Shown piece after piece: positions 8,118 through 52,877 of a DNA stretch of 64,000 bases; position 1 is the stretch's first letter; each line of letters opens with the position of its first letter. The stretch is from an uncultured Gammaproteobacteria bacterium (GTDB lineage Bacteria; Pseudomonadota; Gammaproteobacteria; Eutrophobiales; Eutrophobiaceae): positions 806,001 through 870,000 of the forward strand of contig CALSRS010000001.1 in the NCBI GenBank assembly GCA_943788815.1, written 5' to 3'. A model generated the notes under the pieces. It had not been told where the DNA came from, made no database searches, and saw only the letters and a list, made by a program, of their open reading frames with translations. The position numbers and the translations under genes were made by a program.

Positions 8118-10460
8118 ATGTTAATGAGAATGACAATTTTTAGAGTACAAGCAAAGAATACTGATAATTCGCTTTATCTATTTGCATTGCTCTCTTGCTT
8201 ACTTGCATCTAGCTATCCAGCTCACTCTCAGACCCAAACCAATTCAGAAACTGCCTCATTCTGTCCGGTGATGATGGCAGTGCCACCGCGGCCATTAGTC
8301 ACCGAGACACTGGAAGACGACGACATCATGGTCATTGCAAACAGCATAGATTATGTTGAAGGGGGCACGTCATTAATTGTTGGCAATGCCGAACTAAGTT
8401 ATAACGATCAACAGGCACGTGCAGACAGGATTGAATATAATGATCCTGAAAACACCGTCAGGCTGGATGGTGATATTAATTACTGGGACAATGATGTTTA
8501 CCTCACCAGTCCCGCTGCTTCCATAGATCTTGATACAGATACTGGTGATTTTGAAGATGTGAGGTACTGGTTACTGGGTAACCGGGGAAGAGGGAGTGCC
8601 AGACAGGTAATGATAAATCTTGGCACTACGACACGCGGAGAGGTAATGGACTATACCACCTGTGATCCAGACCTCGAAAGTCCCTGGAACCTGACAACAA
8701 ATATCTGGAAACTCAGCGCACAAAATATCACCCTGGATCATGAGGCACAAAGAGGTACTGGCAGGAACGTCATCCTCAAAATTAAAGACATTCCTGTTTT
8801 TTACACACCTTACATTTCATTTCCGACTAGTGATCGTCGAAAATCTGGACTACTAGTCCCAACATTTGCATCCTCCAGCAGATATGGTTTTGAACTCCTG
8901 GCGCCATATTACTGGAATATATCACCACAAACGGACGCTACCATAACCCCCAGACTGATCACTAACAGTGGTTTGATGCTTATGGGTGAATATCGATACC
9001 TTTTTAAACGCGGTAGAGGAACGGTTAATCTTGAATACCTTCCAGATGATTCTGTTAAGCAAGGCAAAGACAGAAGTTCCATATCAATTGATCACCGACA
9101 ATCCTTTCTTGATGCTGGCAGATTTGTTCTCAACTACAACCGGGTTTCTGATCGAGATTATCTGGAAGATTTTAGCAGTTCATTAATTGGCACGAGTACC
9201 CGGTATATTGAACAAAGCGCAATAGCATCTTATAGCTGGAACCTTAGTGGACACAGATTAAGTATTCATAATCAGGTTGGCAACTATCAGATAGTCGATC
9301 GCAATATACCGGATGTATCTGTTCCATATAAACGTTTACCTTCTACAACAATTAACTATACTTCACCTGTTAAACATGCCCAACTTGCATACAGCTTCAA
9401 AGGAATATTTGATAATTTTGTTCGTGATGATGACTTGTCACCGGATAACGTTAATGGTGCCAGGTATGATCTTTATCCTACAGTTTCATTTCCCATCAGG
9501 AACATTGCCTATCACCTGACACCCAAGGTAGGTTTGAGGTATACCAGTTACCAGCTTAAGGACAATCCAGTTTTTAATGACCAATCACCAGATCGTTTCA
9601 TTCCAATGATGAGTATAGATAGTGGAATGTTTTTTGAAAGACAGGCAAACCTGTTTGGACAGGACGTCCTGCAAACACTGGAACCAAGATTATATTATTT
9701 ATATGTTGAAGAAGAAGACCAGACCGACCTACCTATATTTGACACCGGACTGTATACCCCCAGTTTTTCATCGCTTTTTTATGAAAACCGCTTTAATGGT
9801 GTAGACCGATTTGGCGATGCCAACCAGATCAGCATGGCACTCACCTCCCGGGCTTTTAGTAGTGAATCTGGCCGACAACTGGGTAGTCTCAGCCTGGGGC
9901 AAACGGTGCATCTCAATGACAGGAATATAAATTTACCAGGGTTCTCTGATGAGACTGAATCTGTCACTGCGATTATTGCCAGAGTTGAGTCCAATTTTTT
10001 TCAACATGTTGATTTTAACGGTGAATTTCAATGGGACCCAGAACTGGATCGGATACAAAAACTCTCAGTACGAACCCAAATCCGCCCCGGAGAGGGCAGA
10101 ATAATCAATTTGGGATATCGTAAACACAGGTCGAATCCAGCTAACCGGGTTATTAATATTTTCGATGTAGATCAATCAGATATCTCCTTTAAATGGCCAA
10201 TGAATAATGAATGGAACCTGCTTGGGCGATGGAATTATGCTGTGGAAAAAGATCGGACTCTAGATTTATTTGCCGGTGTGGAATACAACAGTTGCTGCTG
10301 GGGCGTGCGTGCAATAGGCCGTCGATTCCTGACCAGCCTGAATGGAGAGTACGAAACTGGCTTTTTTGTGCAAATTGAGCTAAAAGGACTAGCCGGACTA
10401 GGGCAAAAAACGGTAGACTTTCTCAGAACGAGTATACCAGGATACGAGAGTGGATTTTAA
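8118..10460 (+). CDS. lptD: LPS-assembly outer membrane protein LptD
   Basis: A 780-residue outer-membrane beta-barrel that inserts lipopolysaccharide into the outer leaflet with LptE. A signal peptide precedes SYPAHSQ at about residue 38. An OstA jellyroll domain spans about residues 65-190, followed by the large barrel. The four cysteines of the family's disulfide pattern can be seen: one in SFCPV near the mature N-terminus, one in YTTCDPD near 175, and the adjacent pair Cys726-Cys727. Three ATGs (8118, 8124, 8130) could serve as start. It is followed by surA, its periplasmic chaperone, after only 2 bases. Confidence 0.95.
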   Translation: MLMRMTIFRVQAKNTDNSLYLFALLSCLLASSYPAHSQTQTNSETASFCPVMMAVPPRPLVTETLEDDDIMVIANSIDYVEGGTSLIVGNAELSYNDQQARADRIEYNDPENTVRLDGDINYWDNDVYLTSPAASIDLDTDTGDFEDVRYWLLGNRGRGSARQVMINLGTTTRGEVMDYTTCDPDLESPWNLTTNIWKLSAQNITLDHEAQRGTGRNVILKIKDIPVFYTPYISFPTSDRRKSGLLVPTFASSSRYGFELLAPYYWNISPQTDATITPRLITNSGLMLMGEYRYLFKRGRGTVNLEYLPDDSVKQGKDRSSISIDHRQSFLDAGRFVLNYNRVSDRDYLEDFSSSLIGTSTRYIEQSAIASYSWNLSGHRLSIHNQVGNYQIVDRNIPDVSVPYKRLPSTTINYTSPVKHAQLAYSFKGIFDNFVRDDDLSPDNVNGARYDLYPTVSFPIRNIAYHLTPKVGLRYTSYQLKDNPVFNDQSPDRFIPMMSIDSGMFFERQANLFGQDVLQTLEPRLYYLYVEEEDQTDLPIFDTGLYTPSFSSLFYENRFNGVDRFGDANQISMALTSRAFSSESGRQLGSLSLGQTVHLNDRNINLPGFSDETESVTAIIARVESNFFQHVDFNGEFQWDPELDRIQKLSVRTQIRPGEGRIINLGYRKHRSNPANRVINIFDVDQSDISFKWPMNNEWNLLGRWNYAVEKDRTLDLFAGVEYNSCCWGVRAIGRRFLTSLNGEYETGFFVQIELKGLAGLGQKTVDFLRTSIPGYESGF

Positions 10461-10462
10461 CC

Positions 10463-11752
10463 ATGCTTAAAAAATTACATATAAAAATCATTAGCTTAGC
10501 CATACTTACAACATTTCTTCAGCCCTTATTCGCAGCTGAAGAAATAGATCGCATAGTCGCGATTGTTGAAGATGACGTGATTTTGCACAGTGAATTGAAC
10601 ACCAGAGTTCAAACTATCACTAACCAGTTAATTGAACAGGGGACTCCCCTGCCCCCGCAATCTGTCTTGGAAAAACAGATCCTTGACCGGTTAATACTAA
10701 CCAAGCTTCAAATACAAATGGCGGAAGGTACGGGTATCCGTGTAGATGATGAAACACTGAATCGTACAATTGCTAGCATTGCTGCAGAAAATGAATTAAC
10801 TCTGGATCAGTTCCGTGACATCCTGGAAACAGATGGTTACCAATATCAAAATTTCCGAGAAGATATTCGTAATGAAATCATGATGTCCCGATTAAAACAG
10901 CGCCAGGTTGATAACCGTATGTTTGTATCCGACCGTGAAGTCGATGATTTTTTAATTAACCTACAACATCAAGGTGGACTGGAACAGGAATATCTAATAT
11001 CACATATATTGATCTCACTTCCAGAATCACCAACACAACAGGACCTTGAGCAATCCCGCCAACTTGCAGATAAAGTACAGACAGAGCTGGAAGATGGTGC
11101 TGATTTTGCTGCATTGGCCGCAACCTATTCTAACGATGATAACGCTCTAGATGGTGGTGATCTCGGTTGGCGAAAATACTCTCAGGTACCAACCTTATTT
11201 GTGGATTTTATTGCCACAATGGGAAAAGGTGAAGTCAGTGAGTTAATCCGTAGCCCAAGTGGATATCACATTGTTAAATTAATGGACGTGAGAGATGCCG
11301 AGGAAATGGTCGTCACACAGGTCGAGGCGCGTCACATCCTAATTAAGACTAGTGAAATTGTTGATGAAGAAGAAGCAATTAACAGACTTCATTCACTCAA
11401 GCGAAGAATTGAAAATGGAGATGATTTTGCACAGCTGGCAAGGGGCAACTCTGAAGATATCGTCTCCGCAGGTGATGGTGGTGAATTGGGTTGGTTAAGT
11501 CCTGGCGATACCGTTCCAGAATTTGAAGCAGTTACGGGTGAAATGGCCATAGACCAGGTCAGCGATCCATTCCAGACCCAGTTTGGTTTTCATATATTGC
11601 AAGTGACTGGGCGTAGACAACATGACAGCACGGATGACATCCGCAGGGCAAGAGCACGTGAATTTATTCGCCAGCGTAAAACCAATGAAGCGATGGATAC
11701 CTGGTTACAGGAAATCAGGGATGATGCGTACGTTGAATATCGCCTGGAATAA
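10463..11752 (+). CDS. surA: Periplasmic chaperone/peptidyl-prolyl isomerase SurA
   Basis: A 429-residue periplasmic protein that escorts unfolded outer-membrane proteins, LptD among them, to the BAM complex. The signal peptide ends at LFA-AEEIDR (about residue 25). The N-terminal chaperone domain follows, then two parvulin domains (ISHILISLPE near 173 and VEARHILIKTS near 288, each with GGDLGW or GGELGW). Length equals E. coli SurA (428). It lies in the conserved lptD-surA-pdxA-rsmA order. Confidence 0.96.
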   Translation: MLKKLHIKIISLAILTTFLQPLFAAEEIDRIVAIVEDDVILHSELNTRVQTITNQLIEQGTPLPPQSVLEKQILDRLILTKLQIQMAEGTGIRVDDETLNRTIASIAAENELTLDQFRDILETDGYQYQNFREDIRNEIMMSRLKQRQVDNRMFVSDREVDDFLINLQHQGGLEQEYLISHILISLPESPTQQDLEQSRQLADKVQTELEDGADFAALAATYSNDDNALDGGDLGWRKYSQVPTLFVDFIATMGKGEVSELIRSPSGYHIVKLMDVRDAEEMVVTQVEARHILIKTSEIVDEEEAINRLHSLKRRIENGDDFAQLARGNSEDIVSAGDGGELGWLSPGDTVPEFEAVTGEMAIDQVSDPFQTQFGFHILQVTGRRQHDSTDDIRRARAREFIRQRKTNEAMDTWLQEIRDDAYVEYRLE

Positions 11753-11761
11753 AGGATAACA

Positions 11762-12748
11762 ATTAAGCCCTTAGTCATAACCCCCGGCGATCCAGCCGGT
11801 ATAGGTCCTGATATTGTTATTAGTCTCTCGGAGTCAAATTTCGACTTTCCCCTCGTTGTAATAGCAGATCCCGACCTACTAGAAGACCGTGCAAAAAAAT
11901 TATCTAAAACCATATCAATTAGCAATTACGATCCTGCAAGCAGTCAAAATCATCAAGCAGGTAAACTAACCGTCCTTGCAAAGTCATGTCTGGAGCCGGT
12001 ACTAACAGGCAAACCTTCACCCAAAAATGCCTCATATGTGCTGGAATGTCTTGATCATGCAATTAAGGGGTGCCTGTCGAGTGAATATGCAGGGATGGTC
12101 ACCGGACCTGTGAATAAGGCGGTTATCAACCAGGCAGGATATAGTTTTACAGGGCATACAGAATATATTGCCAAACAATGCAATGATGCATTTCCAGTAA
12201 TGATGCTAATGAATAATTCCATGCGAGTCGCATTGGTCACTACACATTTACCACTTCGTAGAGTACCTGAATCAATAACGCCTGATTTGGTCGAAACTGT
12301 TATTCGAACTATCCATCAGGACATGGTCAACAAGTTTCGAATCAATTCACCAAAAATAATGGTTTGTGGCCTCAATCCCCATGCAGGAGAACAGGGATAC
12401 CTGGGACATGAAGAGCAAGAAGTTATTGAACCCGTACTTTCGCGCCTAAAACAACACGGTATGATGATCACAGGGCCCGTATCTGCTGATACTGCGTTCA
12501 CTTCGGCTTCACTCAAAAATACAGATGTAGTTGTCTGTATGTTTCACGACCAAGGATTACCCGTTTTAAAATCATCCGGCTTTGGGAATATCGTCAATAT
12601 CACCCTGGGATTACCGATCATCCGTACGTCTGTTGATCATGGTACTGCCAATGATCTGGCAGGGACAGGCAAGGCAGATAGCAGCAGCCTGCGCGCCGCT
12701 GTAGACTTCGCTGCCAAACTCTGTTTCAACACACAACATTCTTCATAA
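11762..12748 (+). CDS. pdxA: 4-hydroxythreonine-4-phosphate dehydrogenase, apparent ATT start
   Basis: An NAD-dependent enzyme of pyridoxal phosphate synthesis. The frame from 11762 reads (I/M)KPLVITPGDPAGIGPDIV, the invariant PdxA N-terminus, giving 328 residues against 329 in E. coli. No ATG, GTG or TTG lies in frame between the surA stop (11750-11752) and this motif. The only in-frame codons are AGG, ATA, ACA and ATT, and an AGGA site at 11753-11756 is correctly spaced for ATT at 11762. The first in-frame ATG (12038) would remove 92 conserved residues. Metal-binding motifs are present (TGHTEY, NPHAGE, FHDQGLPVLK). Function is confident; the ATT start is inferred from sequence. Confidence 0.92.
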   Translation: MKPLVITPGDPAGIGPDIVISLSESNFDFPLVVIADPDLLEDRAKKLSKTISISNYDPASSQNHQAGKLTVLAKSCLEPVLTGKPSPKNASYVLECLDHAIKGCLSSEYAGMVTGPVNKAVINQAGYSFTGHTEYIAKQCNDAFPVMMLMNNSMRVALVTTHLPLRRVPESITPDLVETVIRTIHQDMVNKFRINSPKIMVCGLNPHAGEQGYLGHEEQEVIEPVLSRLKQHGMMITGPVSADTAFTSASLKNTDVVVCMFHDQGLPVLKSSGFGNIVNITLGLPIIRTSVDHGTANDLAGTGKADSSSLRAAVDFAAKLCFNTQHSS

Positions 12749-12760
12749 CATTTAATACTT

Positions 12761-13552
12761 ATGTCAGTCCGTGCCCGAAAACGATATGGTCAACATTTTT
12801 TAAATGATCCGTCAGTAATTGCAAAAATTATTGAGGCAATTGATTTCAATACTACTGGCAACATTGTTGAAATCGGTCCTGGACGTGGTGCACTTACCAG
12901 GCCATTACTTGAACAAACGGATTTACTACATGTAGTCGAAATTGATAACGACCTTGTTGAGCATCTTCGAGATATTGAAAATTCACAAAAGCTGAAGATT
13001 CATCACATCGATGCACTGGATTTTGACTTTTGTAAATCTGTCGGCAACAATCTCACCATTATCGGGAACCTGCCTTACAATATTTCAACGCCTCTTTTGT
13101 TTCACCTGCTAGATCAAATAAATTGCATTAGTAATATGTTGTTTATGCTGCAAAAGGAAGTAGCAGAAAGAATATGTGCATCACCTGGCAACAAGGATTA
13201 TGGACGCTTATCAATCATGGTACAGTGCATGTGCAATGCATATAGTCTGTTTGATGTACAACCTGAAGCTTTCACACCCATACCTAAAGTTCAATCAACT
13301 ATCATTAAACTGGTACCCGCTAATAATCCTGAATTCATACCAGATTCAGTCGATACTTTTAAACGCTTGGTTAGACAATCATTTTCGAAACGCCGAAAAA
13401 CAATCAGAAACGCACTTAAAGGAATCGTAGATGATGAAATACTGATTGCATCAGACATCGACCCAAACACACGACCAGAAACCATAGGCGTTGAAGGCTA
13501 TATTCGTCTAAGTAATAACCTGTATAATTCAGCAAAAGTGACAAACAACTAG
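12761..13552 (+). CDS. rsmA: 16S rRNA dimethyladenosine transferase RsmA (KsgA)
   Basis: A 263-residue SAM-dependent methyltransferase that dimethylates A1518 and A1519 near the 3' end of 16S rRNA. It has the N-terminal RARKRYGQHFLND signature, SAM-binding motif EIGPGRGALT near residue 42, and the catalytic motif NLPYNIS near residue 105. Length is close to E. coli KsgA (273). It follows pdxA by 12 bases, the conserved order. In E. coli apaG-apaH come next; here they are 14 kb away. Confidence 0.97.
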   Translation: MSVRARKRYGQHFLNDPSVIAKIIEAIDFNTTGNIVEIGPGRGALTRPLLEQTDLLHVVEIDNDLVEHLRDIENSQKLKIHHIDALDFDFCKSVGNNLTIIGNLPYNISTPLLFHLLDQINCISNMLFMLQKEVAERICASPGNKDYGRLSIMVQCMCNAYSLFDVQPEAFTPIPKVQSTIIKLVPANNPEFIPDSVDTFKRLVRQSFSKRRKTIRNALKGIVDDEILIASDIDPNTRPETIGVEGYIRLSNNLYNSAKVTNN

Positions 13553-13568
13553 CGATAAGAGCATAGCA

Positions 13569-14102
13569 TTGGATAATAAAATATTAAGCCTGTTGGAGAA
13601 GATTGCGGACTTTCTGGAATCTGTTATTGAACATATTGGTAAGGCAATATCCTGGCTGGTACTTATACTTGTAATTTTAGTCAGCTATGACGTTACCATG
13701 CGGTATCTGTTTCAAAGTGGCTCTATTGCAATCCAGGAGATGGAATGGCACCTTTTCTCTCTTATTTTTCTACTTGGAGCCGCTTATACCTTTAAACATG
13801 ATGACCATGTAAGACTGGACCTTTTGTATCAAAGCAAATATATGAATGATTACCGCCGAGCTTGGGTAAATTTTCTAGGTTGTCTTTTATTTCTCATACC
13901 ATTTTCTATTTTGGTAATTACGAGTTCCTGGCCTTTTATTCACCTCTCATACATTCATAATGAAGGTTCTCCTGACCCAGGTGGTTTGCCCCACCGATGG
14001 CTAATCAAATCTGCGATCCCATTGTCATTTACGTTAATACTGCTACAAGGAATCGCCTACATGATAAGAAATTTCTTTTTTATCCTGGAAGAACATAAAT
14101 GA
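13569..14102 (+). CDS. TRAP transporter small membrane subunit (DctQ-like)
   Basis: A 177-residue protein with four predicted membrane helices and the DctQ-type motif DVTMRYLF near residue 42. It is the small integral subunit of a tripartite ATP-independent periplasmic transporter that imports organic acids or similar solutes using an ion gradient. The start codon is TTG at 13569, with AAGAG upstream. It overlaps the large subunit by 4 bases. No periplasmic solute-binding (DctP) gene is found anywhere in the window, so the substrate cannot be guessed from a receptor. Confidence 0.88.
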   Translation: MDNKILSLLEKIADFLESVIEHIGKAISWLVLILVILVSYDVTMRYLFQSGSIAIQEMEWHLFSLIFLLGAAYTFKHDDHVRLDLLYQSKYMNDYRRAWVNFLGCLLFLIPFSILVITSSWPFIHLSYIHNEGSPDPGGLPHRWLIKSAIPLSFTLILLQGIAYMIRNFFFILEEHK

Positions 14103-15855: not shown

Positions 15856-16400
15856 TCTAGTTACCTCATTAATTAATAAACAATGTATTAGTATGCGTAT
15901 TGTTGACGAAGAATCACGGAAAAGACGCTCCAATACACTGCGAGGAACTACCGAGAACCGTTACAAAAAACCACTAACGGTCACACTCTATAGTATTTTT
16001 CACGAGAAAACTACTTTACATGCTGTTCTGGTGAAGCTTGCATCCATTTAGATATAATAAAATATCCTCATTAAATACATGCCTTATCGATACTGTTTAG
16101 CAAAGTGGATAAAAATAATGACACATTTTCAGACATTGATATTAGGGAAATATAATTCACAAGTATTATTAAATGCTTGTTTTTCCCCGAGATTTTAGTC
16201 ATCCATCTTAAATATTTAGTAGTAGAATGACTAATAGCAAATATCTGTAATTGGCCAAGAGCTGAAGTATTTTTTGATAAAAGCAATAATCCCTGTTATT
16301 CGTCAGCATCCGAACCTAAGCAATCATAAGCATTTATACCTATTTTGTTCCGAACTTTTGTTCGTTAGCTCTGTCAGTTGTTCCTACAGGAGGAGAGATG
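15856..16400. other. Intergenic region upstream of cold-shock gene
   Basis: About 545 bases between the divergent cold-shock gene and the secreted protein at 16401. It presumably holds the leader and promoter of both genes. No recognisable cold-box, RNA gene or terminator was found. A 71-codon minus-strand frame (16071-16286) has no ribosome-binding site and no recognisable motif. Confidence 0.5.
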
Positions 16401-51584: not shown

Positions 51585-52877
51585 ATGATACTTTCATACG
51601 TGATCATCACCCTGTTAATTATATTAATAGGCTTGTCAATTTTTCAGTTGATACGGACCAGTAGAAATCCAGTGAATCAAGGTATAACCCGAATTGACAC
51701 ACGGCTGGAAGATCTATTAAAACGCCTTTCGCAACTGGAGGAACGTCTGGGCGACATTAAACTCTCTCAACAGGAAACTTCAGCCCAGACACGAGAACGA
51801 TTAGTTACTTTATTGGCCGAACATAATACCAGTTTTGAAAAAAGGCAGGCCGATGCCTATAAAGGTATAAATGAATCGCTGCAATCGGGTATTACAAACC
51901 TTCAAAAACAAATTGGCGATTACTTAAACCGATACAGTGAAGATCTAGGAAAACGCATGGAAGGTCTAACCAAACAGACCGATGAACGTCTGCAACAGAT
52001 CTCCGGGCAGGTGGAAAAAAGATTGACGGAGGGTTTTGAAAAAACCACAGCGACCTTTGCGGATATTCTCAAGCGACTGGCATTGATCGATGAAGCTCAG
52101 AAAAAGATTACGGAGTTGTCTACCAATGTTGTCAGTCTGCAAGAAGTCCTTGCAGACAAACGTTCTCGAGGCGCCTTCGGTGAAGTGCAACTCAATGCTC
52201 TGATATCCAATATCATGCCCGAGCAGTCCTACCAAATTCAGTATACGCTGCCAAATAACACCAAAGCCGACTGTGCACTGTTTTTGCCAGAACCAACTGG
52301 CATGATAATGATCGATTCCAAATTCCCGTTAGAATCGTATCAACGTATGACAGACTTCTCTTTACCTGAATCGGAAAAAAAGGCCGCTGAAAAACAGTTT
52401 CGACAGGACATCAGCAAACATATTCAGGATATCGCCAGTAAGTACATAATCCCGGGAACCACCTCCGACGGAGCCATGATGTTTATACCCGCTGAAGCCG
52501 TATTTGCGGAAATTCAGGGGCACTATCCAGATCTTGTAGATAAATCCCATACGGCCAAGGTCTGGATGGTGTCACCAACGACACTGGTCGCCATCCTCAA
52601 TACCGCACGGGCTGTTCTAAAAGATGCCGCTACCCGTGAACAGGTACATATTATCCAGGAGCACCTCGGCTACCTGGCAACGGACTTTGGACGCTTTCAA
52701 AAACGCATGGACGACCTGGAGCGGCATATCAAACAGGCCCATGAGGACGTGGAAAAAGTCAATAAATCTGCGAAGAAAATTACCTCACGGTTTGATAAGA
52801 TAGAAAGAGTTGAATTGACCCATATTAAAGATGAGACTATTCCTGTATTACCTGCTGAAGAGGACGATGAATCTTAA
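51585..52877 (+). CDS. rmuC: DNA recombination protein RmuC
   Basis: A 430-residue protein with one N-terminal membrane helix (about residues 3-22), a long coiled coil (about 35-190), and the RmuC nuclease-like domain with RSRGAFGEVQLNALI near 196 and DSKFPLESYQRM near 244. The family limits DNA inversions between short repeats; the mechanism is still unclear. The frame is intact. Confidence 0.92.
   Translation: MILSYVIITLLIILIGLSIFQLIRTSRNPVNQGITRIDTRLEDLLKRLSQLEERLGDIKLSQQETSAQTRERLVTLLAEHNTSFEKRQADAYKGINESLQSGITNLQKQIGDYLNRYSEDLGKRMEGLTKQTDERLQQISGQVEKRLTEGFEKTTATFADILKRLALIDEAQKKITELSTNVVSLQEVLADKRSRGAFGEVQLNALISNIMPEQSYQIQYTLPNNTKADCALFLPEPTGMIMIDSKFPLESYQRMTDFSLPESEKKAAEKQFRQDISKHIQDIASKYIIPGTTSDGAMMFIPAEAVFAEIQGHYPDLVDKSHTAKVWMVSPTTLVAILNTARAVLKDAATREQVHIIQEHLGYLATDFGRFQKRMDDLERHIKQAHEDVEKVNKSAKKITSRFDKIERVELTHIKDETIPVLPAEEDDES

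Follow-up and report, generated by a model that had tools for sequence, protein, structure and literature searches.

The genes surA, pdxA and rsmA lie in the same direction in the window, the stretch of 64,000 nucleotides of DNA analysed here as a whole, which comes from the genome of an uncultured gammaproteobacterium (hereinafter G000). The upstream gene, surA (10463..11752, + strand), is an open reading frame for a peptidylprolyl isomerase; in the profile search, its product matched the SurA model NF008038 with an E-value of 4e-106 and 355.4 bits, under the model's curated cut-off of 394. The surA stop codon, read directly from the sequence, is TAA at 11750-11752, and its final base overlaps a Shine-Dalgarno-like AAGGA (11752..11756, +). 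Five bases after AAGGA comes the proposed start codon of pdxA, ATT at 11762..11764 (+). The pdxA gene itself, encoding 4-hydroxythreonine-4-phosphate dehydrogenase, spans 11762..12748 (+) and consists of 328 codons plus the stop, which again reads TAA (12746-12748). The third gene, rsmA (also known as ksgA; 12761..13552, +), encodes a 16S rRNA dimethyltransferase, starts with ATG 12 bases past the pdxA stop and was used as the control gene.

In G000, surA and pdxA share one reading frame, with 9 bases between the surA stop and ATT. The in-frame codons past the surA stop are AGG ATA ACA ATT AAG CCC TTA GTC ATA ACC CCC GGC GAT, and, counting from the first base of ATT, the first conserved motif of PdxA, TPGDPAGIGP, comes 6 codons later. 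Not until GTG at 12038, 95 codons past the surA stop, does the pdxA frame contain a standard start, and initiation there would result in the loss of 92 residues including this motif. No ATG, GTG or TTG begins between 11734 and 11800 in any frame; the closest upstream standard codons (ATG at 11721, ATG at 11724 and TTG at 11733) are all out of frame with pdxA. A previous sequence-only reading of this DNA had stated that AGG, ATA, ACA and ATT are the only codons in frame between the surA stop and the region of PdxA similarity, and that this similarity extends from the first codons past the stop. Both statements are borne out: the codons are those listed, and in the comparison with solved structures of PdxA (best match 1ps6, E-value 2.2e-101), the aligned part starts at residue 4 of the protein translated from ATT. 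The common frame of surA and pdxA is an addition to that reading. An out-of-frame mini-ORF of 12 codons (11721-11759) terminates 2 bases upstream of the pdxA ATT, and a similar frame is readable in the sister species; being set by the surA codons, it is probably a by-product of surA coding.

The lack of a nearby standard start is peculiar to pdxA within the window. Among 55 open frames (at least 100 codons, chosen greedily, with overlaps of less than 90 bases allowed), pdxA is unique in that its first ATG, GTG or TTG is at least 40 codons past the upstream stop. Further late first starts were noticed in surA (28 codons in) and in the frames at 16320, 21840 and 52871 (21-29 codons). The frame at 52871 was considered as a second near-cognate gene and rejected because its Pfam HAD hydrolase domain begins at residue 26, past codon 22, where the first standard start is found; the frames at 16320 and 21840 had no Pfam match.

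The identity of the pdxA product is clear from its match to the TIGR00557 profile, which covers positions 1-319 of 320 with 406.8 bits (cut-off 290.35), that is, the full length. This is the single pdxA match in the whole G000 genome. The pdxJ gene is present both in this genome and in that of the sister species of the same genus (G001), and in neither was a PdxS-type synthase detected over the cut-off (27 bits versus 438); taken together, these observations suggest that PdxA is probably needed. The PdxA proteins of the two species are 69% identical (221 of 328 residues), compared with 107 identical codons of 328, and third positions are kept in 110 of the 221 identical residues. The protein has changed far less than the codons, and PdxA is accordingly under purifying selection between the two species.

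The junction of the sister species has the same arrangement, with surA and pdxA in one frame and ATT at a 9-base spacer. Its sequence, TAG AAC ATA ATA ATT AAA CCT, contains no standard start and places ATA, ATA and ATT at 3, 6 and 9 bases past the surA stop. Given that 5 of the 8 ATT codons of the G000 gene are also ATT in G001, conservation of this codon alone proves little. The AAGGA is missing in G001, whose closest match to it is a GGA at a distance of 13 bases; hence this element is not conserved and essential, and coupling to surA probably matters more than the Shine-Dalgarno site. Among the five species of the genus, ATT is found at the pdxA start in two (G000 and G001), in two others (G002 and G003) a GTG overlaps the stop codon of surA, and the fifth, G004, is devoid of both a standard start and a suitably located near-cognate codon. 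The assembly of G003 additionally carries, besides a full copy, an incomplete second pdxA located at the end of a contig (G003:C12:120580-120894, L007) that is 53% identical to the query.

We surveyed pdxA starts across the family by anchoring the genes on the first conserved motif, which was feasible for 49 of 53 genomes; those left out had no match (G034), part of the gene only (G009 and G040), or a split gene with N and no motif (G033, L052). Two rows were also set aside, the partial gene L007 and L053, which is the same gene as L033, and the Pseudomonadales record L002, which falls outside the family on the tree and has ATG, is not among the 49. The comparison sample from the rest of the class comprised the best-scoring 88 of 118 genomes with a match. 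Under the strict rule (no ATG, GTG or TTG from the upstream stop up to the first conserved motif), a standard pdxA start is lacking in 6 of the 49 family genes (G000, G001, G004, G050, G051 and G052) and in 2 of the 88 class genes (L112 and L152). Under the loose rule (none of these codons 5-16 codons before the motif), the family count rises to 9 of 49 with the addition of G006, G010 and G018, which have an in-frame, possibly used ATG inside surA at codon -18, -18 and -20, respectively; the class count rises to 4 of 88, L086 having ATG at -4 and L132 at -19. The control gene rsmA has a standard start candidate at all 46 readable family loci, in a window of about -20 to +3 codons that differs from the -16 to -5 window used for pdxA. 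Fisher's test gives 0.003 (loose) and 0.027 (strict) for pdxA versus rsmA and 0.013 (loose) and 0.025 (strict) for family versus class pdxA, values that ignore kinship and serve as a guide only; with L002 included in the counts, the values are almost unchanged. Since 8 of the 88 class loci have their first standard start at -6 and another 12 at -7, a start located 6 codons before the motif, as proposed here, is quite ordinary.

What replaces the standard start varies among the nine family genes identified by the loose rule. In the genus g18, all three species (G050, G051 and G052) have CTG exactly 1 base past the surA stop, and G010 has ACG at the same place; AAGGA or AAGG at the usual spacing is present in G050, G051 and G010 and not in G052. 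In G004, G018 and G006, there is no near-cognate codon at a good place. The G006 junction (L039) contains AAGGAGG together with an ATG that is out of frame, close to where pdxA would be expected to start, possibly reflecting a frameshift in the assembly or in the genome. Several other loci attracted our attention as well. L112 (G090), from another family of the class, lacks a standard pdxA start and has CTG with AGGAGG 8 bases upstream. In L152 (G122) and L019 (G052), ATT overlaps the surA stop (ATTAA and ATTGA), and judging from the sequence, this ATT might be a start that replaces an ATGA-type overlap. A pdxA with one in-frame TGA was found at G135:C4:27620-28546.

The distribution of the start codons hints at how the standard start was lost. 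Most often, in 20 of the 49 family genes, the first standard pdxA start is at -12, within the terminal part of surA, and is formed by bases of surA GAT-G or AAT-G codons. Six of the nine loose-rule genes (G050, G051, G010, G018, G004 and G000) have surA GAA at that place, the surA tail ends earlier in G001 and G052, and G006 has a different tail. Some genes with GAA have another standard start, namely GTG in G002, TTG in G025 and, in G019 and G044, an ATG located further on. A plausible origin would be a GAT to GAA change, or a shortened surA tail, that removed the pdxA ATG read across GAT-G, after which coupling to surA may have let a near-cognate codon take over. The PdxA tree (58 proteins: 49 from the family, L002, and 8 from other families) requires a minimum of 6 switches between presence and absence of a standard start, or 5 if G006 is left out. 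All nine genes fall to the same side of a 21-row branch whose support, 83/94, is under the program's mark for a firm branch; a single early loss followed by regains could, as an alternative to repeated loss, also produce such a distribution.

Altogether, these observations suggest that pdxA is probably translated with fMet from AUU at 11762, mainly by ribosomes or 30S subunits that re-initiate after terminating on surA 9 bases upstream, with the aid of AAGGA. Under this scenario, the ribosomes or subunits that finish surA would stay on the same mRNA and re-initiate at AUU, and AAGGA at the surA stop would assist in G000. No standard in-frame start can give the conserved protein in G000, a feature kept in G001. 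The surA-pdxA distances, +9 in G000 and G001 and +1 in all three g18 species and G010, are within the range of -8 to +10 bases from stop to start that is taken as predictive of re-initiation (PMC10666635). Re-initiation declines with the stop-start distance, and Shine-Dalgarno sites are helpful but not required (PMC2268962); re-initiation on eukaryotic ribosomes is the subject of separate work (PMC4648390). From the layout of the junction, we infer that AUU is used rather than the AUA located 6 bases earlier, and coupling to surA would be expected to carry most of the pdxA initiation. Excess IF3 lowers both re-initiation without a Shine-Dalgarno site and initiation at non-standard codons (PMC2268962), and by analogy with published work on other genes (PMC2268962, PMC5472188), the output of PdxA is predicted to be low and sensitive to IF3. 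A contribution of RNA structure or a riboswitch at the pdxA start was rejected: there is no Rfam match at gathering scores within 10300-13700, and the folding near the start is nothing special (z of 0.17 and -1.42).

The ATT start put forward in the sequence-only reading is thus retained as the best reading, there being no usable standard start and the codon being common to the sister species, and several of the accompanying points call for adjustment. The Shine-Dalgarno site that had been described as perfectly spaced is real in G000, where AAGGA has a spacer of 5, but absent from G001. Re-initiation by ribosomes ending surA, which had been offered as an alternative to the ATT start, is indeed favoured, but as the mode in which ATT is used and not as its rival. 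The suggested look at close relatives gave a mixed picture, with ATT recurring in G001 but GTG in G002 and G003 and neither codon in G004.

The main alternative is that initiation occurs at AUA (11756-11758), or at a mixture of AUA and AUU, with re-initiating ribosomes accepting any near-cognate codon near the surA stop. This possibility, which we regard as unlikely albeit worth keeping in mind, is compatible with ATA lying 3 bases past the surA stop in G000, with the succession of ATA, ATA and ATT in G001, and with the candidate codons 1 base past the stop in g18 and G010; against it, AAGGA overlaps ATA 11756 and so leaves no spacer for Shine-Dalgarno pairing, whereas with ATT the spacer is of the usual length and the N-terminus is normal. 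It appears quite improbable that AUU is recognized through AAGGA alone, independently of surA translation, as at infC. AAGGA with its 5-base spacer in G000 would fit such a mode, as would the view that E. coli gene pairs at +9 to +12 bases are likely independent initiators (PMC10666635), but G001 lacks the site despite the identical ATT, and the near-cognate codon abuts the surA stop in g18 and G010. A sequencing or assembly error that masks a standard start is very improbable. The analysis covered a single assembly of the species, but this assembly consists of 3 contigs with 99.2% completeness, the remainder of pdxA is intact, and a separate species has the identical arrangement and codon without a standard start, which makes a read error unlikely. 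Finally, readthrough of the surA stop yielding a SurA-PdxA fusion, for which the common frame in G000 and G001 could be invoked, is hardly credible and was rejected mainly because the two genes are in different frames in most family loci, and also because the stop codon differs (TAA in G000, TAG in G001) and the SurA signal would direct the fusion to export, whereas PdxA is a cytoplasmic enzyme.

The position of rsmA downstream of pdxA raises the question of feedback. The nearest rsmA start candidate is located -11 to +12 bases from the pdxA stop at 34 of the 46 family loci, including 7 of the 9 loose-rule pdxA genes; in G004 and G010, the distance is 27 and 120 bases, respectively. In E. coli, loss of KsgA/RsmA goes with more non-AUG initiation (PMC7897474). 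By analogy, the surA-pdxA-rsmA operon might act as a sensor of start-codon stringency, such that low RsmA or IF3 would lead to more pdxA AUU starts and hence bring more ribosomes into rsmA. If true, this would amount to homeostatic feedback of the infC type, operating via rRNA methylation; we consider it a speculative and improbable scenario. Most relatives with the identical gene order keep a standard pdxA start.

Near-cognate starts as such are already known; what is new is their recurrence in pdxA, next to the surA terminus. Among the pdxA literature matches listed, no title or abstract deals with an unusual pdxA start. In a published reconstruction, 1 switch to AUU and 2 to CUG were reported for 61,358 ancestral AUG starts (PMC5622118). 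Switches of this type are very rare, and yet in a single bacterial family several lineages have no standard start for one conserved biosynthetic gene, at its junction with surA. Such a set of natural variants could be used to test whether start-codon choice is relaxed by coupling to an upstream gene. In practical terms, gene finders limited to ATG, GTG and TTG would shorten such genes, here by 92 residues.

Near-cognate initiation appears to be already in use in these bacteria, as indicated by infC, which was found in 42 of the 53 family genomes. In 30 family genes read by alignment, infC starts with ATC in most cases and with ATT or ATA in some, and 25 of the 30 have no standard start in the upstream open frame; in G000 and G001, the open infC frame reaches an ATG located further up, so the comparison is weaker there. 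Neither infC nor, in a search with IF3_C, anything over the cut-off was found in the three g18 genomes (G050, G051 and G052, with pdxA in L037, L010 and L019). Loss of IF3 was considered as an explanation for the pdxA starts of this genus and rejected: rplT, which is within 1.1 kb of infC in G000 and G001, was not found in the same three genomes either, and the assemblies are 84-87% complete, so that most likely a piece is missing from incomplete assemblies.

Several known systems resemble pdxA in part. E. coli pcnB, another gammaproteobacterial gene, also starts with AUU; it is unrelated to pdxA and has a different context. A close parallel in terms of the codon is infC, the gene for IF3, likewise an important conserved gene with a near-cognate start, for which AUU is the classic codon (PMC5472188). 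Unlike pdxA, whose site is weak or absent, infC has a GGAGG-type site in nearly all 30 family genes read, and its product is the very factor that reads the codon, whereas pdxA has no known link to IF3. A case other than infC is known from Streptomyces, where the near-cognate GTC start of sigR makes this gene subject to repression by IF3 (PMC5472188); in contrast to pdxA, it encodes a regulator and not a biosynthetic enzyme, and in the excerpted account of that work no re-initiation from an upstream gene is described. In terms of geometry, surA-pdxA resembles short-distance termination-reinitiation pairs, in which stop and start are within a few bases (PMC10666635, PMC2268962), such as the M13-derived reporter with a 1-base gap in which re-initiation is lowered by excess IF3 (PMC2268962). 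In the pairs covered by these accounts, the native starts are standard (PMC10666635, PMC2268962), whereas at the surA-pdxA junction the start is near-cognate.
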